A stretch of DNA of 64,000 nt from Spirochaetaceae bacterium bin103 (GTDB lineage: Bacteria; Spirochaetota; Spirochaetia; SZUA-6; Bin103). Below, in pieces: positions 3,730-56,333 of the stretch. The notes under the pieces were generated by a model, which did no database searches, was not told the origin of the DNA, and saw only the letters and a program-made list of their open reading frames with translations. The position numbers and the translations under genes are program-made. The stretch is taken from positions 1 to 64,000 of the forward strand of contig MPNH01000004.1 in the NCBI GenBank assembly GCA_002238925.1. The letters are read 5' to 3'. The number at the start of each line of letters is the position of its first letter. Position 1 is the first letter of the stretch.

Positions 3730-3802
3730 CCGCCGGCGCCGCGTTCCGGCAGCGCGCGGCAAGAACCGGCCCGCACTCGGCGGGGATCGTTGCGGCCGCG
3801 CC

Positions 3803-4852
3803 TCAGGCGGGCGCCTGCGCGGCGCCGGCACGGTGCGCGCGGCGCAGACCTTCCCGGAATCCCACCATCTGGCGGCTGGTCTCGTCGTACAGCCGCATCG
3901 ACAGGCAGCGCAGCGTATGGCGGATGCGCAGCACCGGCACCGTGTGCATCGCCGGCACCTCGCGGTGAGCGCGTTCCAGGTAGTAGTTGGGAATGCGCGG
4001 GTCCAGGTGATGGATGTGGTGGAAGCCGATGTTGCCGGTGAACCATTGTAGCACGCGCGGCAGCGCCAGGTAGGAGGACCCTTGCAGCGCGGCGCTCGCG
4101 AAGTCCCAGCTCTCATGACGGCGCCAGTACACGCCCTCGAACTGATGCTGGACGTAGAACAGCCAGGTTCCCACCGCCGAGGCAAGCACGAACACCGGCG
4201 TGAACACCACCAGGAAATTGACGAAACCGAACGGCAGCGACATCGCCACCACGAACAGGGCGGTGCCGACGTTGGTCCAGATGATGGCGCGCAGCGAGCG
4301 GGCGCTGACCCGCTTGCGCGGAAAGCGGTGGTTCAACAGGAACCCGATAGGGGCAACCAGGAAGAACAGCACGAACGGGTTGCGAAACACCCGGTAGGCG
4401 ACCCGCAGCTTGCGCGGGGCGGCCACGAACTCCCGCACGGTCATGGTCCACACGTCGCCGAGGTCGCGGCGGTCCAGATCGCCGGCGGTGGCGTGGTGCC
4501 GGGCATGTTCGTGCGACCAGTGCTGGAACGGGGTAAAGGTCAGAAACCCGGCAAGGTAGCCGATCACGCGATTCCAGCGGCTGCGCCGGAACAACGACCC
4601 GTGTCCAGCGTCGTGAAAGAGAATGAACACGCGGATCAGGAACCCGGCGGTGGGCAGGGCGAGGAGCAGGCTGAGCAGGTAGGAAACCTGCGCCAGCGCT
4701 CCCATCAGGATCAGCCCGCCGATATAGGGTACGAATGAGGTAACGATTTGACCCATGCTGCGGCCGGCCGACGGCGTACGGAACTGCTTGAGTTCCCGCT
4801 GCAACGCGCGGGAATCGGCCGGCGCGCTCTGCGCTCTTTCACTCACGGACAT
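3803..4852 (-). CDS. Membrane fatty acid desaturase (omega-6/delta-12 type)
   Basis: A 349-residue di-iron desaturase. All three histidine boxes are visible: HDAGH at 80-84, HARHH at 116-120 and HHIHH near 278, followed by a DPRIPNYYLERAH segment typical of DesA/FAD2-like enzymes. Four hydrophobic segments flank the boxes. The enzyme introduces a double bond into membrane acyl chains and needs an electron donor that is not seen here. It is the first gene of a minus-strand group continuing into the AcpS-like domain and the acyltransferase fusion, so the group probably makes or remodels unsaturated lipids. Confidence 0.9.
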   Translation of the reverse strand: MSVSERAQSAPADSRALQRELKQFRTPSAGRSMGQIVTSFVPYIGGLILMGALAQVSYLLSLLLALPTAGFLIRVFILFHDAGHGSLFRRSRWNRVIGYLAGFLTFTPFQHWSHEHARHHATAGDLDRRDLGDVWTMTVREFVAAPRKLRVAYRVFRNPFVLFFLVAPIGFLLNHRFPRKRVSARSLRAIIWTNVGTALFVVAMSLPFGFVNFLVVFTPVFVLASAVGTWLFYVQHQFEGVYWRRHESWDFASAALQGSSYLALPRVLQWFTGNIGFHHIHHLDPRIPNYYLERAHREVPAMHTVPVLRIRHTLRCLSMRLYDETSRQMVGFREGLRRAHRAGAAQAPA

Positions 4853-5050
4853 GCTCTCCTTCCCCGACCTGGGGGCTTGTTCGTTGTCACATTGCGCCGA
4901 GGTCGGTAAGGTCCGTCAGCGAATAGGTACCCCGAAAGCATCGCGCGCCGACGCCTCCAGGTCAAGCGTCTGTGCAATTTCCGGTTATTGCCGGGATTGC
5001 CGGGCAGGATTTGACCGTGGCCAGCCCCCGGCCATAGATTGTCCGCCGCC

Positions 5051-6052
5051 ATGAGCGAGCCGTTGATCGAGGTTGCCGGACTTACCAAGCGGTTCCGCGT
5101 TTCCGCCGGCGGCTCCGGCACCACGGGCGGCAGCCGCACGCTGCGGGCGCTGGTGGCGCGGCGCAAGGTCGTCACCGCGCTGGACGAAGTCTCATTCCGC
5201 ATCGGCGCCGGCGAGCTGGTCGGGTATATCGGCCCCAACGGCGCCGGCAAGAGCACCACGGTCAAGATCCTGTCCGGCATCCTGGTGCCCGATGCCGGCC
5301 GTTGCGTGGTGGCCGGGCGCGTGCCGTGGCGTGAGCGCGTGGCGCACGTGGCGACCATCGGCGTGGTGTTCGGACAGCGCAGCCAGCTCTGGTGGGACCT
5401 GCCGGTAATCGAGTCGTTCGACCTGCTGCGCGACATCTACCGGCTGCAGCCCGCCGCCTACCGCGAAACCCGCGACGAACTGATCGAGCTGCTGGCCATT
5501 GCCCCGCTGCTGGCGGTGCCGGTGCGGCAGCTCAGCCTCGGCCAGCGCATGCGCTGCGAACTGGCCGCCGCTCTGCTGCACCGTCCGCGGCTGCTGTTCC
5601 TGGACGAGCCCACCATCGGCCTGGACGCGGTGGCCAAGCTGGCGGTGCGCGACATCATCCGCCGCCTGCAGGGGCGCGGCGTCACCACCATCCTCACCAC
5701 CCACGACCTGGACGACGTGGAGGCGCTGTGTCCGCGCGTACTGGTAATCGGTGCCGGATCGATCCTGTTCGACGGCTCGGTGGCCGACCTGCGTGCCGGC
5801 GTCGACCGCGAGCGGATTCTGACCGTCGACCTGGAGCACGAGGTGGGCAGCTTCGCCACCTCGTCGGCGACGGTGGTGTCCGCGGCCGGACGGCGGGTGG
5901 TGCTGCGCTACGACCCGACGCGCATTCCGACACCGCGCATCATCGAGGAGGTGGCGCGCGACAACGACGTGCGCGACCTGTACATCGAGCCGCAGCCGAT
6001 CGACGAGCTGGTAGCGCGGCTGTACCGCAACCTGGAACTGGAGGAAGCATGA
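5051..6052 (+). CDS. ABC-2 type exporter ATP-binding protein (COG4586-like)
   Basis: A 333-residue ATPase; ATG 5051 is preferred to an in-frame TTG at 5039. Walker A GPNGAGKST lies at about 61-69, the signature LSLGQRM near 161 and Walker B LLFLDEP near 183. The stretch VFGQRSQLWWDLPV is characteristic of the COG4586 group, which always works with two six-helix permeases. Its stop overlaps the start of the first permease (ATGA). The substrate is unknown; relatives are annotated as daunorubicin-type or viologen exporters. Confidence 0.9.
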   Translation: MSEPLIEVAGLTKRFRVSAGGSGTTGGSRTLRALVARRKVVTALDEVSFRIGAGELVGYIGPNGAGKSTTVKILSGILVPDAGRCVVAGRVPWRERVAHVATIGVVFGQRSQLWWDLPVIESFDLLRDIYRLQPAAYRETRDELIELLAIAPLLAVPVRQLSLGQRMRCELAAALLHRPRLLFLDEPTIGLDAVAKLAVRDIIRRLQGRGVTTILTTHDLDDVEALCPRVLVIGAGSILFDGSVADLRAGVDRERILTVDLEHEVGSFATSSATVVSAAGRRVVLRYDPTRIPTPRIIEEVARDNDVRDLYIEPQPIDELVARLYRNLELEEA

Positions 6053-6885
6053 CGCTCGCCCTGCGCCTGGCGCCCTACCGAGGCGTGCTGCGGGCGCGCT
6101 GGCGGGAGACGCTGCAGTATCGGCTGGCGGCGCTGGCCGGGTTCGGTACCCAGTGCTATTGGGGCCTGCTGCGGCTGATGATCCTGGCCGCGTTCTACCA
6201 GTCGGGCCCCGCGGACGCCACCGACTTCAGCTTTGCCCACGCGGTGCCCTACGTGTGGCTGGGGCAGGCGCTGCTGTCGCTGTTCCCGTTCCGGCTCGAC
6301 GCCGACCTCGCCGACAGCGTGCGCACCGGCTCGGTGGCGAGCGAACTGTTGCGCCCGATCGATCTCTATTCCTATTGGTTCTGGCGCATGGCGGCGTGGC
6401 GGCTGGCGCAGGCCGCGCCGCGCTGCCTGCTGATGGTGGTGGTGGCGGCGGTAATCCTGCCGCTGGTGGGACTGGACGAGTGGGCGCTGACCGGACCGGC
6501 GGGTGGCGCCGCCGCCGGCATGTACCTGCTGGCGACCGCGCTGGCGCTGCTGTTGGGAGTGGCGGTGACCGCGGTGCTGATCAGCCTGATGTTCTGGACC
6601 GTCTCGTCGGAGGGCGCCCGCTACATCCTGCCGGCGATCGTCTGGTTCGGCGGTGGCCTGGTAATCCCGCTGCCGCTGCTGCCGGACGGCCTGGCCGCCG
6701 TGCTCGGCTACCTGCCGTTCGCCGGCCTGATGGATATCCCGTTCCGCATCTACGTCGGCCACCTGGCCGGCGCCGAGGCACTTGCCCGCCTCGCCCTGCA
6801 GGTGGGCTGGCTGGTGTTGCTGGTGCTGCTGGGCAGGCTGCTGCTGGCGCGCGGCCTGCGCCGGGTGGTAATTCTTGGCGGCTAG
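6049..6885 (+). CDS. ABC-2 exporter permease, first subunit (COG4587-like)
   Basis: A 278-residue integral membrane protein starting at ATG 6049, sharing four bases with the ATPase stop. About six hydrophobic segments are seen, with a cytoplasmic loop rich in Asp/Arg (RLDADLADSVRTGSVASELL) that is typical of this permease family and likely contacts the ATPase. It pairs with the next gene to form a heterodimeric channel. Confidence 0.85.
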   Translation: MTLALRLAPYRGVLRARWRETLQYRLAALAGFGTQCYWGLLRLMILAAFYQSGPADATDFSFAHAVPYVWLGQALLSLFPFRLDADLADSVRTGSVASELLRPIDLYSYWFWRMAAWRLAQAAPRCLLMVVVAAVILPLVGLDEWALTGPAGGAAAGMYLLATALALLLGVAVTAVLISLMFWTVSSEGARYILPAIVWFGGGLVIPLPLLPDGLAAVLGYLPFAGLMDIPFRIYVGHLAGAEALARLALQVGWLVLLVLLGRLLLARGLRRVVILGG

Positions 6886-7717: not shown

Positions 7718-7863
7718 CAGGCGGCCTCTCGCGGCGCGAAAAAAGCACCTGGACATAGCGTCCATAAAAGCGCGGCGGGGCCGGTACACTCTAGACAGAC
7801 GGGCTAGTGACGGGCAGGGTCGACAGCCTGCCCGCCAGGTCGACTGAAGCGGAGGTGGTACTC

Positions 7864-8064
7864 ATGGATACCCCGGAAGACGTCACCATGGATCAACTTA
7901 GGGAGCGCCTGAGAGAGAGTCAGGTCGCTATCATCGAAGCCCTGCGGCAGGCGAACGTATCGTGGACGATCATCGAACGTGCCACCGGCATTGACGAGAT
8001 CTCCTTCAACCTGCTGAAACAGAGCCTCGCCCCGCCGGACAACGGAGAAATGGCCTGCTGCTGA
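7864..8064 (+). CDS. Small hypothetical protein, 66 residues
   Basis: ATG 7864 follows a GGAGG at about 7850-7856. The product is short, mostly helical and polar, with the sequence ALRQANVSWTIIERATGIDE, which could be a helix-turn-helix: a helix, a turn at the Thr-Gly and a second helix. It ends in Met-Ala-Cys-Cys. It stands alone between the exporter and menH. The good ribosome site is the main support; no family is recognised. Confidence 0.5.
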   Translation: MDTPEDVTMDQLRERLRESQVAIIEALRQANVSWTIIERATGIDEISFNLLKQSLAPPDNGEMACC

Positions 8065-8158: not shown

Positions 8159-8962
8159 ATGCCAACGCGTGCCGCTCCGCCGCTCCTGTTCGTGCACGGC
8201 TTTCTGGGCGAGGCCGCGGACTGGCACCGGTTGCGCGGTCTGCTTCCCCCCGAGGTTGCAAGCGACTGCTTCGAGCTGCCCGGCCACGGCACGGCGCCGC
8301 CGCTTACGGACACTCCGGCAGACTGGTTTCCGGACGCGGCCCGGCGGCTGTCGCTGGCGTGCCGGAAGCAGCCGGCGCTGCCGGTGGTGGTCGGCTACTC
8401 CATGGGCGGGCGGCTGGCGCTGTACACGGCGGTGCGCCACCCCGGCGCGGCAAGCGGACTGGTGGTGCTGGGCGCCGACCCCGGCATCGGCGATGCGGCG
8501 TTACGCGCCGAGCGCGGCGCCCGCGACGAGGCGCTGGCGCGCTCCCTGGCCGCGGCCCGCGACGAGCCGGCATTCGCGGCGTGGCTGCGGCGCTGGTACG
8601 CGGCGCCGCTGTTCGGCGCTCTGAACCGCCATCCGGCATTCGCAGCGCTGCTGAAACGGCGGCTGCGGCAACGCCCGGGGTCGCTCGCCGCCGCGCTGCG
8701 AGGGCTGTCCGTGTCGCGGCAGCCGGCGCTCTGGCACGCATTGCAGGCGCTGACCATCCCCGCCCTGTTCATCGCCGGCGCCGAAGATGCCAAGTACCGA
8801 GCCGTCGCGGGTCGCATCGCGGAGCTCGGCTCGCCCTGGCAGGCCGCCGTCTGCCCAGACGCCGCCCATGCCGCGCACATCGAGCAGCCGGAGGCGGTGG
8901 CCGCTCTGATCCGTTCGTTTGCGGAGTCCGTCTCGGCGGGCCGGGGCCGGACGGCGGGTTAG
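8159..8962 (+). CDS. menH: Alpha/beta hydrolase, probable MenH (SHCHC synthase)
   Basis: A 267-residue alpha/beta hydrolase. FVHGFLGEAADW near the N-terminus supplies the oxyanion region, and GYSMGGR with nucleophile Ser80 is the form typical of MenH, which eliminates pyruvate from SEPHCHC in menaquinone synthesis. A late Asp (GAEDAKY, about 208) and His (near 235) could complete the triad. The following gene is menB, which supports the assignment. The other men genes are not in the window. Confidence 0.75.
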   Translation: MPTRAAPPLLFVHGFLGEAADWHRLRGLLPPEVASDCFELPGHGTAPPLTDTPADWFPDAARRLSLACRKQPALPVVVGYSMGGRLALYTAVRHPGAASGLVVLGADPGIGDAALRAERGARDEALARSLAAARDEPAFAAWLRRWYAAPLFGALNRHPAFAALLKRRLRQRPGSLAAALRGLSVSRQPALWHALQALTIPALFIAGAEDAKYRAVAGRIAELGSPWQAAVCPDAAHAAHIEQPEAVAALIRSFAESVSAGRGRTAG

Positions 8963-28022: not shown

Positions 28023-28062
28023 TTGACAGGCGCTCGTTTTCGTCCATGGTATGCGTCCATGG
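28023..28062 (+). promoter_or_regulatory. Candidate promoter/operator of the Phd-PIN operon
   Basis: TTGACA at 28023-28028 is a perfect -35 hexamer. The 9-base direct repeat cgtccatgg occurs at 28041-28049 and 28054-28062, the second copy overlapping the antitoxin start codon. No good -10 is seen at standard spacing. Such repeats near the start are common binding sites for Phd-type autorepressors; binding here is inferred. Confidence 0.4.
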
Positions 28063-28331
28063 ACGTACCAAGGGAGACGATCGCCGCCGGAGAATTCAAG
28101 CAAAAGTGCTTGGCGCTCATCGATCAGGTCGCCGCCACCGGCGCCCCGATCATCATCAGCAAGTACGGAAAACCGGTCGCCCGGCTGATGCCGCTGGAAA
28201 CTCCCGAACAAGCCGAGAACCGGATCCTCGCGGCGCTCCGATTCGGACATGGGGGCATGCTCGTCGATGAGGCAACATTCCTGGCTCCCTCCTCGGAGAT
28301 CGCCGGCTGGCCCTCGGACGCGGCTACGTGA
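28059..28331 (+). CDS. Phd/YefM-type antitoxin
   Basis: A 90-residue protein from ATG 28059. The N-terminal AAGEFKQKCLALIDQVAATGAPIIISKYGKPVARLMPL is the classic Phd DNA-binding/dimer fold, followed by a variable tail that would wrap the toxin. Its TGA overlaps the GTG of the PIN gene. Expected to repress its own operon and neutralise the toxin. Confidence 0.9.
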   Translation: MDVPRETIAAGEFKQKCLALIDQVAATGAPIIISKYGKPVARLMPLETPEQAENRILAALRFGHGGMLVDEATFLAPSSEIAGWPSDAAT

Positions 28332-28714
28332 TTACCCTCGACACGCACGCCGCCGTTTGGTGGACGCTATCGCCGGAGCACCTCAGCACGCCGGCGGCGG
28401 AGGCCATTCACCGCGCGGACCGGATCCTGATCCCGGCGATCGTGTTTTGGGAGGTGTCGCTGCTGGTGCGCAAGGAGCGAATGCGATTGAACGACGACCA
28501 GCCAGTCGGCACTTGGGCGCGGCAGGTTCTTGCAATCCCTCGGGTGGAGGAAGTTCCGCTTACTGTCCGTGTCGCCCTCGCCGCCGATGCGGCCGACATG
28601 CATCCCGACCCGGCAGACCGGTTCATCGCCACCACCGCACACCAGCTCGATGCCCCCCTGGTGACCAAGGACCGCCTGCTGCGCGACCTCCCGTGGTTGG
28701 CGACGACTTGGTAA
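28328..28714 (+). CDS. PIN-domain toxin (VapC-like)
   Basis: A 128-residue PIN RNase starting at GTG 28328, coupled to the antitoxin. Acidic residues are in place: Asp5 (TLDTHAAVWW), Glu42 (IVFWEVSLL), and DPADRFIATTA and VTKDRLL further on. These toxins typically cut tRNA or rRNA. The stop is one base before a 52-bp direct repeat. Confidence 0.92.
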   Translation: MITLDTHAAVWWTLSPEHLSTPAAEAIHRADRILIPAIVFWEVSLLVRKERMRLNDDQPVGTWARQVLAIPRVEEVPLTVRVALAADAADMHPDPADRFIATTAHQLDAPLVTKDRLLRDLPWLATTW

Positions 28715-28715
28715 G

Positions 28716-28767
28716 CGGTCAGAGGGTGTGGGATTCGAGCCAGCCCAAGGTGGCTTCGATGCCGAAG
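28716..28767. repeat. 52-bp direct repeat, left copy
   Basis: Bases 28716-28767 are identical to 29932-29983. The right copy contains the stop and last codons of the racemase/dehydratase gene; this left copy is a detached duplicate of that gene end. It begins immediately after the PIN toxin gene. Confidence 0.97.
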
Positions 28768-28821
28768 ACGTTACATCCGAGGAGTCAGCCTTCACGGACA
28801 CCGGGTGTACCCAAATCGATT

Positions 28822-28870
28822 GCTTGTTTCACAAGCTGGGTTGGCGATCCGACCGAATTGCCGCTATTCT
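28822..28870 (+). promoter_or_regulatory. Candidate sigma-70 promoter with upstream inverted repeat
   Basis: TTGGCG (28841-28846) and TATTCT (28865-28870) are spaced by 18 bases, about 50 bp before the start of the 105-residue gene. Just upstream, gcttgt and acaagc form a 6-bp inverted repeat around ttc (28822-28836), a possible operator. Confidence 0.45.
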
Positions 28871-28923
28871 AGGGTCGAGTTTGGGCAGCTACACCCGCAC
28901 CACCACTGGCAGGAGGACCCTCA

Positions 28924-29241
28924 ATGCGTATCTGGCTATCTTTCGACCTCGGCGTCTCCGGCGACTACGAGGGTATGTACCAATGGCTTGACGACAAGGA
29001 TGCGCAAGAGTGTGGTGCGACCGTCGCGAGTTTCCTCTGTTCCGAGGAACACGATCTCCTACCGTCACTGAGGTCTGAGATTGAAGAGGCAGTGACTCTT
29101 AACAAACGGTCCAGGGTTTACGTAGTGTATAAGGACGACGAAGGGAAAGGCAAGGGGCGTTTCTTGATCGGTGGACGCAAGCGTGCTCCTTGGGACGGAT
29201 ATGGAACACACGAGGAACCGGACGATGACGAGGATCTCTAG
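28924..29241 (+). CDS. Hypothetical 105-residue protein, likely partner of the PIN protein
   Basis: ATG 28924 follows GGAGGA at good spacing. The product is acidic, especially at the C-terminus (EEPDDDEDL), with a compact middle: SRVYVVYKDDEGKGKGRFLIGGRKRAPW. No family recognised. Its stop abuts the ATG of the PIN gene, the usual antitoxin-first arrangement, so it may be an unusual antitoxin or immunity partner. Base composition is clearly lower in GC than the surrounding genes. Confidence 0.7.
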   Translation: MRIWLSFDLGVSGDYEGMYQWLDDKDAQECGATVASFLCSEEHDLLPSLRSEIEEAVTLNKRSRVYVVYKDDEGKGKGRFLIGGRKRAPWDGYGTHEEPDDDEDL

Positions 29242-29661
29242 ATGCAACGCCTACTCGTCGACTCCGGATTCTTCTTCGCGCTCTTCAACGCGCGAGATCG
29301 AAATCATGTCGATGCCAACGAAAAGCAGGAATGGTTGGAGATCTTTTCCGTCACGATTCCTTGGCCCATTCTCTATGAGACAATCAACACTCGACATACT
29401 CGTAGACCTCACTGGATAGCAAGATTGGAGAGCATAGTTCGCTCTCCCGACACCGAGCTTATCGACGACATTCCTTATCGTCTTGATGCATTCGACGACG
29501 TCATTGAGCGAGGCAAGACCCAGCGTAACGCCATGAGCCTCACAGACGCCGTACTGCACTCAATCCTGGCTGATCCGAAGATCAGAGTGGACGCGATGTT
29601 GACGTACAATCACCGCGACTTCTACGCAATTTGTAGTTCCAAGGGCGTGGAGTTGCTGTAG
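29242..29661 (+). CDS. PIN-like domain protein
   Basis: A 139-residue protein starting directly at the stop of the preceding gene. Candidate acidic residues: Asp7 (LLVDSGFFFALF), Glu46 (WPILYETINT), Asp in SLTDAVLHSI and a late NHRDF. This is a diverged PIN layout, distant from the VapC-like copies elsewhere in the window. Low GC relative to neighbours points to recent acquisition. Confidence 0.75.
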   Translation: MQRLLVDSGFFFALFNARDRNHVDANEKQEWLEIFSVTIPWPILYETINTRHTRRPHWIARLESIVRSPDTELIDDIPYRLDAFDDVIERGKTQRNAMSLTDAVLHSILADPKIRVDAMLTYNHRDFYAICSSKGVELL

Positions 29662-29712
29662 GCCATCCTCATAGGAGTTCTCAAAGCTTGCCACGATGGC
29701 GAGGACGGAACA

Positions 29713-29928
29713 GTGCGAATGATGAGTAGCCCATCATCTACAGGAAACGACAAGTTCCGTACTCGCAAACACGAACTATCCATTGCCGTCGCCCGGAATT
29801 CGCAAAAGATCGAAGGGCCTTACCAGGGTGTCCTCACATGGGCGCGGGGGATAGGCTCCCACGCCGTCTTTTTTCGCCGGATCGATCGGGCCGTCCTCGA
29901 ACAGAAACTTGCGGGCGAGAATGGGTAG
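29713..29928 (+). other. Possible small open frame, 71 residues, weakly supported
   Basis: A GTG-initiated frame contains RKHELSIAVARNSQKIEG, reminiscent of short antitoxin-like helices (ARNSQxIEG). There is no strong ribosome site and no stop-coupled neighbour. It lies between the PIN-like gene and the right 52-bp repeat. It may be a real small gene or a decayed remnant. Confidence 0.25.
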
Positions 29929-29931
29929 CCC

Positions 29932-29983
29932 CGGTCAGAGGGTGTGGGATTCGAGCCAGCCCAAGGTGGCTTCGATGCCGAAG
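29932..29983. repeat. 52-bp direct repeat, right copy
   Basis: Identical to 28716-28767. It spans the stop codon (29935-29937 on the minus strand) and the last 15-16 codons of the enolase-superfamily gene, so the intact gene uses this copy. The 1164 bp between the copies holds the low-GC two-gene unit. Confidence 0.97.
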
Positions 29984-31143
29984 CCGGGGGCGTCGCTGGG
30001 AACCAGGTGGCCGTCGCGGATCACCGGGGTGCCGGGTACGTAGACCATCTCCTGCAGCGGCACGCCGGGCGGGGAGACGCCCTCGGAGCGCTCGCCCCAC
30101 TGCACGGCGGGCATGGCGAAGGAGAGGTGCTGGCCGAACGGGGTGTTCATGCCGGCGTGGGCGATCACGGTGAGGCCGGCGGCGTCGGCCAGGTGGCAGA
30201 TGCGCACCGCGTTGCTGAGGCCGCCGCACCACTGCAGGTCGGGCTGCAGGATGTCGACCAGGCGGCGCTGCACGGCGCTCGCGAAGCTGCCGATGCCGTA
30301 CCAGTGCTCGCCCGAGGCCAGCGTGATGCCGGGCAGCCGGCTACGCACCGCCGCGTAGCCCTCCAGGTCGTCCGCCGGCAGGAAGTCTTCCAGCCACTTG
30401 ATGCGGTAGGGACGCAGCAGCTCGCCGAGCCGTACCGCGTACTCGACGTTCGGGTTGAGCCAGGCGTCCACCGCCAACTCGACGTCGTCGCCGACCAGTT
30501 CGCGGGCGCGCGCCACGCGATCTTCGGTCTCGCGCAGGCCGGGCAGGTTCTGCTCCGGGCCGGTGGTCAGGAAGATCTTCACCGCGCGGAAGCCCAGCTC
30601 CAGGAACCACTCCAGGCTGTGCTCCATGCCGTAGGAGAGGTCGGTGTTGCTGGCGTAGCAGAAGATGCGCTCCTTCTGCGGGCCGCCGAGCAGCTCGTAC
30701 ACCGGGCGGCGCAGCAGCTTGCCCTTCAGATCCCACAGCGCCAGGTCGACGGCGCTCATCGCGTAGCTGGCCAGGCCGGAGGCGCCGTAGGGGGCGGTGG
30801 CGCGGTGCATCAGGTCCCACGCCTTCTCGGTGGCGGTGACCGGCTGGCCGGCGAGCAGCGGGCCGAAGTGGTCGTTGATCACCGCCGCCACCGGGGCGCC
30901 GTGCAGGGTGAGGCCGAGCCCCCAGGTGCCGTCCTCCGCCGTGGCCACGCACGCCACCCGCGGCCAGCCGGTTCCCGTGTGCGGCAGGCCGGGATAGCGG
31001 TCCACCGGATGCCGGAAGCGGCGCGGCGCTGCGACCCCGGCAGCGTTTCCCGTGGTGCCCACCGCGGAGGCTGGTACACGCGGCGGGGTGGTGGGTCGCG
31101 GCGCCAGGTCGACGCAGGCGGCATGAATCTTCTTGATGCGCAC
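29935..31143 (-). CDS. Enolase-superfamily dehydratase (L-rhamnonate dehydratase-like)
   Basis: A 402-residue mandelate racemase/muconate lactonizing family member. SYAMSAVDLALWDLKGKLL is the family signature. Metal ligands are likely Asp in AVDAWLN, Glu in WLEDFLPADD and Glu in ASGEHWYG; the catalytic His is in AHAGMNTPFGQH. VKIFLTTGPEQ and the WLEDFLPADDLEGY segment resemble L-rhamnonate dehydratases, which remove water from sugar acids. Substrate is an inference. Its 3' end is duplicated at 28.7 kb. Confidence 0.88.
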   Translation of the reverse strand: MRIKKIHAACVDLAPRPTTPPRVPASAVGTTGNAAGVAAPRRFRHPVDRYPGLPHTGTGWPRVACVATAEDGTWGLGLTLHGAPVAAVINDHFGPLLAGQPVTATEKAWDLMHRATAPYGASGLASYAMSAVDLALWDLKGKLLRRPVYELLGGPQKERIFCYASNTDLSYGMEHSLEWFLELGFRAVKIFLTTGPEQNLPGLRETEDRVARARELVGDDVELAVDAWLNPNVEYAVRLGELLRPYRIKWLEDFLPADDLEGYAAVRSRLPGITLASGEHWYGIGSFASAVQRRLVDILQPDLQWCGGLSNAVRICHLADAAGLTVIAHAGMNTPFGQHLSFAMPAVQWGERSEGVSPPGVPLQEMVYVPGTPVIRDGHLVPSDAPGFGIEATLGWLESHTL

Positions 31144-31231: not shown

Positions 31232-31474
31232 ATGACCCCTCGTGCGCAACAGCTTCTCCGCGAAGCCCTGACGCTGCCTGCCGAAGAACGCGCCGATGTG
31301 GCTACCGAATTGCTCGCCAGCGTGGACGAGACCGAAGGCGCCATGCAGGCTGTCGAGACAGGTTGGGCCGCTGAAATCGAGCGGCGGGCTCGGCGGGTTC
31401 TCGCCGACCAAACAGCCGGAACTCCCTGGGAAGATGTGAGACGGCGAGCCGAAGACGAGTTGCGCCGGCGGTGA
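31232..31474 (+). CDS. Addiction-module antitoxin component (PF09720-like), orphan
   Basis: An 80-residue protein: LLREALTLPAEERADVATEL, SVDE, VETGWAAEIERRARR and TPWEDVRRRAEDEL follow the family consensus closely. Such antitoxins are normally followed by a RelE/ParE-type toxin. Here the next 50 bp lead straight into the convergent DUF4340 gene, and no toxin frame is present. It may act in trans or be a leftover. Confidence 0.85.
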   Translation: MTPRAQQLLREALTLPAEERADVATELLASVDETEGAMQAVETGWAAEIERRARRVLADQTAGTPWEDVRRRAEDELRRR

Positions 31475-31524: not shown

Positions 31525-32454
31525 CTACTGCTGCTCCTCGGGCGGGCCGGCGGTAGTGAAGGCTTCCAGGAAGCCGTTGACCATCCATACGAACAGCAGG
31601 AACGGGTAGTCGGAGCCGGTGGAGGTGGCCGGGTAGCTGTTGCCGGAGCGGGCGTACACGGTCAGCGTGTGGGTGGCGCCCACCTCGGTCTTGAGGGTTA
31701 GCGCCAGCACCTCGCCACCCAGCTCTGGCGGCGCCTCGGCGAAGCGGAACGTGCTCAGGTTGGCCAGCCGCTGCAGCGACTCCGCCACCTTGGCGGAGTT
31801 CCACTCGCCGCCGTCGGCGGTGACCCATTCGGGGGCGGCGCCCTCCTCCAGCGGCGGGCGCTTGCGCAGCACCAGTTCCTCGCCGGGGCTGCGCGCCACG
31901 ATCTCGCCCACCGTTTCGATGTCCACCTGCAGCACCAGCTTGTCGCGCAGCACGTCGCCGACCACCGGGAAGTAGTTGCCGAGGTCGCCCTCCGCCTGGT
32001 AGACGCGCTTGTCGCCCTCCACCTTGACGTAGGTGTGCTGATAGGTGCGCGCCTCCTTGCCCAGCTCCACGGTGCGCAGCACGGAATCGCCTCCGAACGC
32101 GGTCACCCGCAGCGCCGACTCGGGATCGAGCTCGAAGCGGCTGTAGGCAGCGTGCTCCGACACCAGGTCGGTGATCTGCAGCGTGGCCAGCGTCCGCACC
32201 ATGGTGTCCACCTGGGCGGTGGCGGCCGGGAAGTCGCCCGGCTCCAGCACCCACCCGTCGCCTACCTTGCGCACGGCCACGCGCTGGCCGCCCTTGACGA
32301 TCTCGAAGCGGTCCACCTCTTCGGCCGCCATCTCGGGGAGTTGCGGCAGGTCGTACAGGAGGCGGTCGCGGTTGCGCAACCCCAGGTAGAGGGCCAGTGA
32401 CACGATGATCAGGGCCGGCAGTGCGTACCGGATCAGGATCCGATCCAGGCTCAT
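31525..32454 (-). CDS. DUF4340 protein, last gene of Gld-type operon
   Basis: A 309-residue protein from ATG 32454, which shares one base with the GldG-like stop (TGATG). One N-terminal membrane anchor (IRYALPALIIVSLALYLGL) is followed by a large extracytoplasmic region with several beta-rich DUF4340 repeats. DUF4340 proteins regularly accompany GldF/GldG ABC genes; their role is not established. Confidence 0.85.
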   Translation of the reverse strand: MSLDRILIRYALPALIIVSLALYLGLRNRDRLLYDLPQLPEMAAEEVDRFEIVKGGQRVAVRKVGDGWVLEPGDFPAATAQVDTMVRTLATLQITDLVSEHAAYSRFELDPESALRVTAFGGDSVLRTVELGKEARTYQHTYVKVEGDKRVYQAEGDLGNYFPVVGDVLRDKLVLQVDIETVGEIVARSPGEELVLRKRPPLEEGAAPEWVTADGGEWNSAKVAESLQRLANLSTFRFAEAPPELGGEVLALTLKTEVGATHTLTVYARSGNSYPATSTGSDYPFLLFVWMVNGFLEAFTTAGPPEEQQ

Positions 32455-34685
32455 CACGACGCACCTCCCGCTTCGCGTTTGCCCGGTGCCTTCGACCCGC
32501 CAGCGCGGGTGCCGCCACCGGCCGGCCCAACAGTGCCGTATTCCGCGCGGATGCGGCCCTGGCGCAGGCCGCCGAGAATCCACACCAGGATGCCGACCAC
32601 GATCACCAGCGCCGGCAGGCCCGCCACCGCGAACGTCTTGATGGCGGTGCGCGCCGGCGGTTCGATCTCGCGTAACGGCCGCACCCGGCGCCCCATGCTG
32701 CGCATCTCGGCGCGTTCGTCACGCCCGTTCATGGCGTCGATCAGGTTGAGCACGAACAGCGAGTTGGGGTTGTGGCCCTGCACGTCGATGAAGCCGCTGC
32801 CCAGGATGGCCGAGGTGCCGACCACGAACAGCCGGCCCTCGCCCGCCGCCGTGAAGCTCGCCCCGGCTTGCAACTCCTCGGCGGAGATCAGCGGCGCCGC
32901 CTCCTCTTCGTCATCCTGCGCACTCGGCTCGTCGCGCGGCGGCTCCGGCACCTCGCGGTCGGCGAAGTAGCTGGTAAAGGTGCCCTCGGCCAGGACCGCC
33001 AGCGGAAACGAGGTACGCACGTCGTCACCTGGCGGCTGCGCGTTCATCAGGTCGATCTGGCCTTCCATCTCCCAGGCGGTCGGCGAGGTACGCAGCGCCA
33101 CGGTGTAGTCCACGCCGGGCTGGCCGCCGCCCACCACCGTCAGCGGCGACGCGTTGAGCATCACCAGTTCCTCCAGGCCGGCCAGGAACGGCACCCCGCG
33201 GTCGATCTCGTCCTCCTTCAGCAGCGGCGCGAAGTAGATCTCGCTCTCCACGTAGCCGCCGCGCTGCGACGGCTGGCGCTGCACGAACGCCTGCTCGTCC
33301 AGCACGTAGGACTGCTCCAGGCGGACGCCGTAGTGCTGCAGCATCGCCTCCAGGCCGGTCTCGCGCGGCAGGTGGAAGGCGCCGCCGCCGCCGAAGCCGC
33401 TGCCCTGGCTAATCCAGATGTGGTGCGAGTCGAGAAACAGCATCAGCGAGCCGCCGCGCAGCAGGAACTGGTCAATCTGGAATAGCGCCCAGTCGTTGAA
33501 CGGCTCCTGCGGACCCACCACCAGCATGCTGCGCACCCCCTCCGGCACGAAGCGATCCTCCAGCAGCAGGCCGCGGTAGGTGTACTCCCCGGACACCAGT
33601 TGGAACAGGTTGGACAGTTCCGCCTCCACCATGTCGGTAGGGGTGGTGGCGTTGGCGCGCCCGCGGTAGGGCGGCGTCTCGAAGTCGGCCAGGTAGCCCA
33701 TCTCCTCCTGGGTGCCGAGGATGTTCTTCAGAGTGTCGTCCAGGGAGCGGCGGATGGTATCCAGGTCGGCGAGCTGGTAGCCCATGACGCTGCTCTGCAG
33801 CAGGTTCATGGTGATGGTGGTGCCCTCCGAGGTCACCGACAGGCCGGCGTAGGCCAATTCGGCGCCGCCGTCCGGCCCCTGCAGCTGCAACGGCGCCAGC
33901 CGCAGCCGGCGGCCCTCGTCGAGCGGCACCGTCTCCTCGTTCGCATCGACAACCTCGAACTGCAGGCGGTCGAAGTAGCTGGCGTTGAGTTCCTTGACCA
34001 GGGTCTCGATTTCGCCCGGCACCTGGTCGACGCCGGGCGCCAGCGCCGCCAGCGGCGACGAGAAGTAGAGCGTTACCTGGATGTCTTCCTCCAGGGCAAC
34101 GAGCCGGCTGACGCGCTCGGTGAGCTTGGTGATCGCCTCGGTAATGGTCAGCTCCAACTGGCTGGTATCGGTGATCGACGGGATGGTCTCGATCAGGTCG
34201 CCGTGGATCAGCGCCATGCCGGTGTAGGCGGTGCTCAGCGTTACCTCATCGCGGTCGAGCTGCTCGATCTGGATCGGGTAGATCAGGTACTGGCGGGCCA
34301 GCTCCTCGTTGGCGATCGCCTCCTCCTGGCCCACCTCCTCGGCGCCCATGGAGACAAACTGGAAGTTGAACAGGTCGCCGCCGTGCACGGCGTACTCGTC
34401 GAGCAGGTCGCGCACCGCCTGCTCCACCGTGTTGTAGGGGGCGGGCAGGTTGGGCGTGAAAAAGGCGCGGATGGTGAGCGGCTCGCGCAGCGCGCTGACC
34501 GCGTCGATGCTCGGCGGTGACAGCTTGTACAGCCCCGTCTCGGTAACGTCGAAGCGCTGGAACAGCCCCGACGCCGAGGACACGTTGATCATCACCAGCG
34601 CGCCGACGAACAGCACGACCTCGACCAGGCGCAGGCCGGTGCGCAGCGGTGTCCGGGCGCCGCTGCCGCTCATACCGCCGCTCAT
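32454..34685 (-). CDS. GldG-like ABC transporter auxiliary protein
   Basis: A 743-residue protein from ATG 34685 (coupled to the permease stop, ATGA). N-terminal helix VVLFVGALVMINVSSAS, then the characteristic FDVTETGLYKLSPPS segment of the ABC_transp_aux family, a large extracytoplasmic domain (LVVGPQEPFNDWALFQIDQF, then LMLFLDS) and a C-terminal membrane helix near FAVAGLPALVIVVGILVWIL. In Bacteroidetes GldA/F/G serve gliding, but in other phyla the operon has unknown cargo. Confidence 0.88.
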   Translation of the reverse strand: MSGGMSGSGARTPLRTGLRLVEVVLFVGALVMINVSSASGLFQRFDVTETGLYKLSPPSIDAVSALREPLTIRAFFTPNLPAPYNTVEQAVRDLLDEYAVHGGDLFNFQFVSMGAEEVGQEEAIANEELARQYLIYPIQIEQLDRDEVTLSTAYTGMALIHGDLIETIPSITDTSQLELTITEAITKLTERVSRLVALEEDIQVTLYFSSPLAALAPGVDQVPGEIETLVKELNASYFDRLQFEVVDANEETVPLDEGRRLRLAPLQLQGPDGGAELAYAGLSVTSEGTTITMNLLQSSVMGYQLADLDTIRRSLDDTLKNILGTQEEMGYLADFETPPYRGRANATTPTDMVEAELSNLFQLVSGEYTYRGLLLEDRFVPEGVRSMLVVGPQEPFNDWALFQIDQFLLRGGSLMLFLDSHHIWISQGSGFGGGGAFHLPRETGLEAMLQHYGVRLEQSYVLDEQAFVQRQPSQRGGYVESEIYFAPLLKEDEIDRGVPFLAGLEELVMLNASPLTVVGGGQPGVDYTVALRTSPTAWEMEGQIDLMNAQPPGDDVRTSFPLAVLAEGTFTSYFADREVPEPPRDEPSAQDDEEEAAPLISAEELQAGASFTAAGEGRLFVVGTSAILGSGFIDVQGHNPNSLFVLNLIDAMNGRDERAEMRSMGRRVRPLREIEPPARTAIKTFAVAGLPALVIVVGILVWILGGLRQGRIRAEYGTVGPAGGGTRAGGSKAPGKREAGGAS

Positions 34686-55932: not shown

Positions 55933-56333
55933 CTAGCGGGACGGACGCCACTCATCGCTCTGTACGACGCGGCCGCCGCCGATACTGCCGCCATACTCGC
56001 CGACCTCCGGTACGTCTACCACCAGCGGCTCATCGGGCAGCCGCTCGTCTACCGGAGGCAGTTCGCCCGCCTCCACCCGTTCGCGCAGCATCGGCGCTTC
56101 CTGGTATCGGCTGGGGGGCGGCCGGGCGGTCGCCCCCCGGCCGCCGGCGGGGGGGCGCGCCCGCCCCCCGCCTCCACCCGTTCGCGCAGCATCGGCGCTT
56201 CCTGGTATCGGCTGGCGGCAGCCTGGTCGTCCGCTCCGCGCCGGCAGGCGGTGGCGAGCCCGGTGAGCGCGGCGGCGGTCAGGGCGCAGGCGAGCAGTCT
56301 TCGCACGGTGCGGCGGGCTGCAGAGTAGGGCAC
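55933..56333 (-). pseudogene. N-terminal remnant of a family 5 binding protein, broken by an insert
   Basis: GTG 56333 starts a lipoprotein signal (RRLLACALTAAALTGLATAC), then SRYQEAPMLRERVEAG. A 101-bp insertion (a duplicate of 49 bp plus 52 bp) then shifts the frame. Removing it restores ELPPVDERLPDEPLVVDVPE, VGEYGG, and a stop at 55933. Family 5 proteins are over 500 residues, so this is only the start of one; the rest has been lost. Confidence 0.75.
56066..56215. repeat. 49-bp direct repeats flanking a hairpin-rich spacer
   Basis: 56066-56114 and 56167-56215 are identical. The 52-bp spacer is almost only G and C and contains a perfect 10-bp stem (56117-56126 with 56136-56145); a second 9-bp stem (56146-56154 with 56164-56172) reaches into the right repeat. 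Confidence 0.95.

Follow-up and report, generated by a model that had tools for sequence, protein, structure and literature searches.

The window analysed here is a stretch of 64,000 nucleotides from Spirochaetaceae bacterium bin103 (contig MPNH01000004.1, positions 1 to 64,000 of the forward strand), and our subject is a segment of low guanine-plus-cytosine (GC) content within it, which carries two abutting genes and lies between two copies of the 3' end of an enolase-superfamily gene. The copies, at 28716-28767 and 29932-29983 on the forward strand, form a direct repeat that is exact over 52 nt, as the preliminary description of this DNA had stated, and comparison within the window sequence gives 54 identical positions of 55 over 28716-28770. 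Each holds the final 49 nt of the enolase-superfamily gene and 3 nt past its stop. By sequence, the right copy is the present 3' end of that gene, an open frame on the reverse strand (29935-31143) that is MR/MLE dehydratase-like (PF13378, E 2.8e-46; PF02746, E 3.2e-13) and whose match to the L-rhamnonate dehydratase model falls under the model cut-off. The left copy begins 1 nt beyond the stop of a vapC gene (28328-28714), and because of this position it is probably the displaced original end of the enolase gene. Even with up to three mismatches allowed, a 22-nt piece of the repeat was found at just these two sites in the 4.78-Mb genome. When 426,829 bases of that genome, the window included, were surveyed for exact direct repeats of at least 24 nt spaced by at most 8 kb, the other repeats listed were a CRISPR array, tandem or close repeats (at most 285 nt apart) and one 103-nt duplication.

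The insert between the copies (28768-29931, 1,164 bp) has a GC content of 0.542 against 0.675 for the whole window. It is the lowest-GC stretch of its length there, one of 1,257 sliding windows being equally low or lower, so the earlier remark that it is poorer in GC than both sides stands; third-position GC is 0.61 and 0.63 in its two genes versus 0.94 in the enolase gene. The first of these genes (28924-29241, forward strand) encodes a protein of 105 residues, hereafter P105, and is immediately followed by a gene for a PIN-domain protein of 139 residues (29242-29661, forward strand), the abutment being as first described. Two further features of the preliminary description were not recovered: a scan of 28650-30000 found no sigma-70-like promoter, and the proposed small third frame of 71 residues (29713-29928) matches no family. 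The tail in which this frame lies (29662-29931) has no clear similarity in 20 related loci, with one weak tblastn row at E 0.01. A third gene was therefore rejected, and the frame is probably not a gene.

Neither protein of the pair has a meaningful match to Pfam, NCBIfam or PADLOC models, and we turned to structure prediction and to their families. The structure model of the second protein matches the PIN fold, is VapC-like and has as its nearest structure VapC20, which cleaves the sarcin-ricin loop according to the title of 5wzf, and we regard the protein as a predicted VapC-like PIN ribonuclease. Single-sequence searching finds 111 homologs. The PIN-domain model PF01850 matches 12 of 34 family members (best E 1e-4), the window protein not being one of them, and yet the acidic residues D7, E46, D102 and D126 are all four present in 13 of 13 proteins, D102 being nearly invariant in the 34-member alignment. 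For P105, which is acidic (isoelectric point 4.5), the AlphaFold2 model has a pLDDT of 80, its top Foldseek and VIA-align matches are Cas2, and hhalign also aligns it to Cas2 proteins; a Cas2/VapD-like fold is thus predicted. An aspartate on strand 1 (Asp8) is kept in 26 of 26 members, and the next motif has serine in 21 of the 26 and threonine in the window protein. These positions would correspond to the catalytic Asp and Ser of Cas2/VapD-like proteins. At E <= 0.1, none of the 26 members matches the Cas2 family PF09827 or any known type II antitoxin model in Pfam and NCBIfam.

P105 has 47 homologs by single sequence and 1,278 by profile, and the best 120 of the latter carry no Pfam domain and no functional name. 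It occurs at 16 loci of genome contigs whose record titles include Binatota, Entotheonella, Latescibacteria, Rhodobacter, Sedimentisphaerales, Gammaproteobacteria and Deltaproteobacteria, among others, and on one conjugative plasmid, which carries a copy of the pair. At 12 of 18 loci, the window among them, both genes are full-length and stand in neighbouring frames. At three (L030, L038, L042) the PIN gene was not found beside P105, at two (L028, L039) it is broken there, and at one (L040) P105 is frameshifted beside a full PIN frame. Two of these places have features of their own: the Entotheonella locus L028 has a truncated second P105 copy (5811-6017) upstream of the intact one and beside the frame-disrupted PIN gene, and in Desulfamplus (L042, 5986-8388) P105 directly precedes another open reading frame, presumably a urocanate hydratase gene, with no PIN gene.

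Since the 18 loci were found mostly through P105 and are biased toward loci that bear it, the reverse test matters. A PIN profile search in three genome groups (47, 148 and 341) gave ten full-length, unbroken matches at E <= 1e-15, and P105 lies directly upstream in all ten, four of them in genomes not pre-chosen by P105. That count excludes fragments and broken or distant PIN proteins, including fragments in G641 and a broken gene in G405; a partial P105 stands beside two of the three places excluded in these genomes. Broken PIN genes adjoin a partial P105 at L135 and L152. P105 was not found beside the fragment at L138, beside L140, beside the PIN fragment at L151 or beside the weak matches L141, L142 and L144-L146, and a weaker match in G022 (E 6.6e-12) is preceded by a different small gene; the comparison of neighbours does not extend to 13 further weak class-level matches (E 1e-7 to 1e-3). 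Across 12 loci, the distances between P105 proteins and those between PIN proteins correlate strongly (Mantel r 0.859, reached by none of 10,000 permutations), and part of this agreement could come from common species history alone. The pair in the insert is a genuine module of two genes, unnamed and conserved in distant bacteria.

What the module does can be predicted from analogy. In pairs built around a PIN protein, the first, acidic gene usually encodes the antitoxin and the second an RNA-cutting toxin. We infer that P105 is the antitoxin because of this gene order, because P105 persists without an intact PIN gene at five loci and the PIN gene without an intact P105 at one, in a set found mostly via P105, and because there is a precedent in VapW, a Cas2/VapD fold that serves as antitoxin to VapD according to the accessible part of its report (PMC11980593). 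P105 would bind and inactivate the PIN enzyme; if P105 were lost, the toxin would be released, cut an essential RNA and bring growth to a halt. The preliminary suggestion of an undescribed type of toxin-antitoxin system is plausible.

Because Asp8 is kept, P105 may itself cut nucleic acid, and the roles could be otherwise: P105 might be an active Cas2/VapD-like nuclease, itself the toxin or one of two cooperating nucleases. We consider this unlikely, as the toxin of such a pair is usually its PIN protein, all four acidic residues of the partner are conserved here in 13 of 13 proteins, and P105 lacks an intact PIN neighbour at 5 of 18 loci. The points that speak for it are the predicted fold with its aspartate in 26 of 26 members and serine in 21 (threonine in the window protein), the one locus that pairs a broken P105 with a full PIN frame, and the fact that VapD proteins are toxins, as stated in the accessible part of PMC7180214. 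If P105 is instead an antitoxin, the module would belong to an unnamed family of toxin-antitoxin systems with a wide distribution, in which a protein of the Cas2/VapD fold that keeps the metal-binding Asp of Cas2 would have been recruited as antitoxin against a PIN ribonuclease unrelated to it. Relatives of Cas2 would then stand on both sides of toxin-antitoxin systems, a proposal to which we give tentative credence, a little short of even. In the literature searched, which took in few subscription papers and included accessible parts of PMC3506569, PMC7180214, PMC4963859, PMC12737573, PMC10491678 and PMC11980593, no account was found of a PIN toxin with a partner of the Cas2/VapD fold.

Alignment with close relatives, suggested in the preliminary description, supports its view that the segment is an insertion. 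In G002, a genome of the same genus, a 56-nt vapB remnant (84% identical to 28251-28306) abuts the enolase end, which is 94% identical over 410 nt and contains a single repeat copy, and neither vapC nor the insert nor the duplication was found at this locus. This arrangement would mean either that the adjacency of vapB and the enolase gene predates the presence of the insert here or that G002 lost everything in between. The G002 copy and the left copy in the window share 85.5% identity over the 55-nt repeat region, whereas the two window copies are identical over 52 nt, and the duplication is thus likely younger than the split from G002. With the PIN profile, a search of 394 genomes sampled from the class gives the window's own gene at E 2.3e-69 and next the G022 match mentioned above, with nothing in the three nearest relatives (G001-G003), and in 392 sampled genomes of the phylum the P105 profile matches the genome of the window alone. 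The module was therefore likely acquired horizontally and recently. The insert has no DNA-level match in plasmids and no match elsewhere in its own genome, and a phage origin was rejected, as neither gene of the pair was found in viral contigs or phages.

How the segment entered is a separate question. We somewhat favour the reading that it is a recently acquired module of a VapC-like PIN toxin and a Cas2/VapD-fold antitoxin, captured as linear DNA. The capture would have taken place at a staggered break in the end of the enolase gene, and fill-in of the break would have copied 52 bp. One copy would have made the end of the gene complete again, and the displaced original would have been left beside vapC. 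Such fill-in could yield the geometry of the window without any enzyme of the module's own, and an event of this kind would come to notice only where the copied bases made the gene whole again. The duplication is probably the product of a repair or recombination accident, ordinary in kind.

An accident of another type is one-sided (homology-facilitated illegitimate) recombination, in which DNA of a conspecific donor with the unit beside its enolase gene would have paired through the enolase end, its other side being joined by chance. We think this rather unlikely, since it requires a donor in which the unit already lay beside the enolase gene, and none was seen in the genomes searched. For the effector-immunity arrays of Vibrio, however, events of this type have been suggested as the source of displaced gene remnants (accessible part of PMC5361080), and the same neighbourhood is rearranged in G002 as well, where much of the enolase gene is lost; it looks prone to rearrangement.

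The preliminary description had read the duplication of a gene end as the mark of an integrative element and had noted that no integrase or transposase lies inside. The latter holds: the three insert frames tested match no such family, and no integrase was found among the tested frames of the insert and its neighbours. The nearest tyrosine recombinases on the contig (C26), with PF00589 alone sought, are at 73398 and 75572, about 43 kb off. It had also proposed to look for the same duplication around other inserts, and here the outcome is divided. A search of 16 related loci for exact flanking repeats, out to 4 kb, yielded none above 20 nt. A gapped comparison of 5-kb flanks, however, recovered long imperfect direct repeats at 2 of the 16, both P105-only, which the exact search had missed because mismatches broke them into pieces. 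L038 has 90 nt at 89% identity, 2.1 kb apart (5680-5769 and 7789-7878), and L030 has 135 nt at 76%, 1.6 kb apart (4750-4884 and 6370-6503), and 244 nt at 81%, 4.5 kb apart (3746-3989 and 8197-8440). The other 14 loci, several with flanks shorter than 5 kb, gave nothing beyond one 40-nt match at 82%. An element targeting gene ends is therefore weakly supported. A mobile element whose crossover site at the gene 3' end is the 52 bp, with the recombinase acting in trans or the insert being the remnant of a larger element, would account for a direct repeat that restores a gene around DNA of foreign GC, and could call on the 12 PF00589 matches in the genome and on the repeats at L038 and L030. The lack of a recombinase seen in the insert, the confinement of the repeat core to this place in the genome, the 14 loci without longer flanking repeats and the failure to find the pair in viral contigs or phages make it improbable in our judgement.

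We regard as very improbable that the arrangement is an assembly artefact fusing two strains. The genome is in 96 contigs with an estimated contamination of 2.47%, and yet the insert is flanked on either side by host-like DNA within one contig of 139,852 bp, and the cluster of the PIN protein, with a representative 99% identical, comprises four sequences that lie on three contigs no longer than 2,197 bases, which seem to be different contigs from this one.

The surroundings contain further toxin-antitoxin genes. A canonical pair on the forward strand (28059-28714), which the preliminary description does not mention, adjoins the left repeat and consists of a Phd/YefM-type antitoxin gene (28059-28331; PF02604, E 1e-9) and the VapC-type PIN toxin gene already named (28328-28714; PF01850, E 6.2e-16). 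On the far side of the enolase gene is an orphan addiction-module antitoxin gene (31232-31474; PF09720, E 1.9e-10), and the equivalent stretch is missing in G002. Beside its truncated enolase gene, G002 has a partial second copy (L023 5673-5700 and 5756-5783, judged by eye to agree at 24 of 28 nt) of the end of the gene that matches window positions 31525-32583, a second gene-end duplication in this neighbourhood. Elsewhere in the source genome, a separate Cas2 gene and a CRISPR array lie on contig C26 (125367-128640), about 96 kb from the module, and on contig C68 (L121, 3724 and 7505) there is a 103-nt exact duplication with a spacing of 3.8 kb, accompanied by a 26-nt piece; the duplication comes from the N-terminal part of a long repetitive open reading frame and shares the contig with a tyrosine recombinase gene. 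In the window, an exact 49-nt repeat (56066-56114 and 56167-56215) surrounds a 52-nt spacer of GC 0.98, and C26 100548, C1 22703 and C6 9922 show comparable short repeats whose spacers are likewise rich in GC (0.82 to 0.93); this may be a quirk of the assembly or a small element.

Toxin-like nucleases are regarded as the ancestors of Cas2. If the proposed family is real, the Cas2/VapD fold would have been drawn into toxin control more than once, the origin of CRISPR adaptation would be linked to toxin-antitoxin modules in a directly testable way, and more than 1,200 proteins of one family could be assigned a role.

Compared with known systems, the insert differs from transposons and insertion sequences, since no inverted repeat of at least 15 nt was found to bound it and its 52-nt duplication exceeds their usual target duplications. 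P105 resembles the Cas2 of CRISPR systems in its predicted fold and strand-1 Asp, but it lacks a PF09827 match and is paired with a PIN gene. Solitary Cas2 homologs, which occur near resolvases or relaxases according to the accessible part of PMC3506569, share with it a Cas2 fold outside CRISPR and mobile contexts, as with the conjugative plasmid copy, although they adjoin DNA enzymes rather than a PIN gene. VapD is the toxin of the VapXD, VapYD and VapWD systems, with VapX, VapY or VapW as its antitoxin; one component likewise has the Cas2/VapD ferredoxin-like fold, but the accessible part of that account (PMC11980593) describes no PIN partner, and the partner of P105 models as a PIN protein and not as VapX, VapY or VapW. 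The module is also like VapBC, with a small acidic gene in the antitoxin position directly upstream of, and conserved with, an abutting PIN toxin gene that has four conserved acidic residues and VapC20 as nearest structure. It departs from VapBC in that P105 has no match among the VapB families known to Pfam or NCBIfam and is predicted to adopt a Cas2/VapD-like fold.
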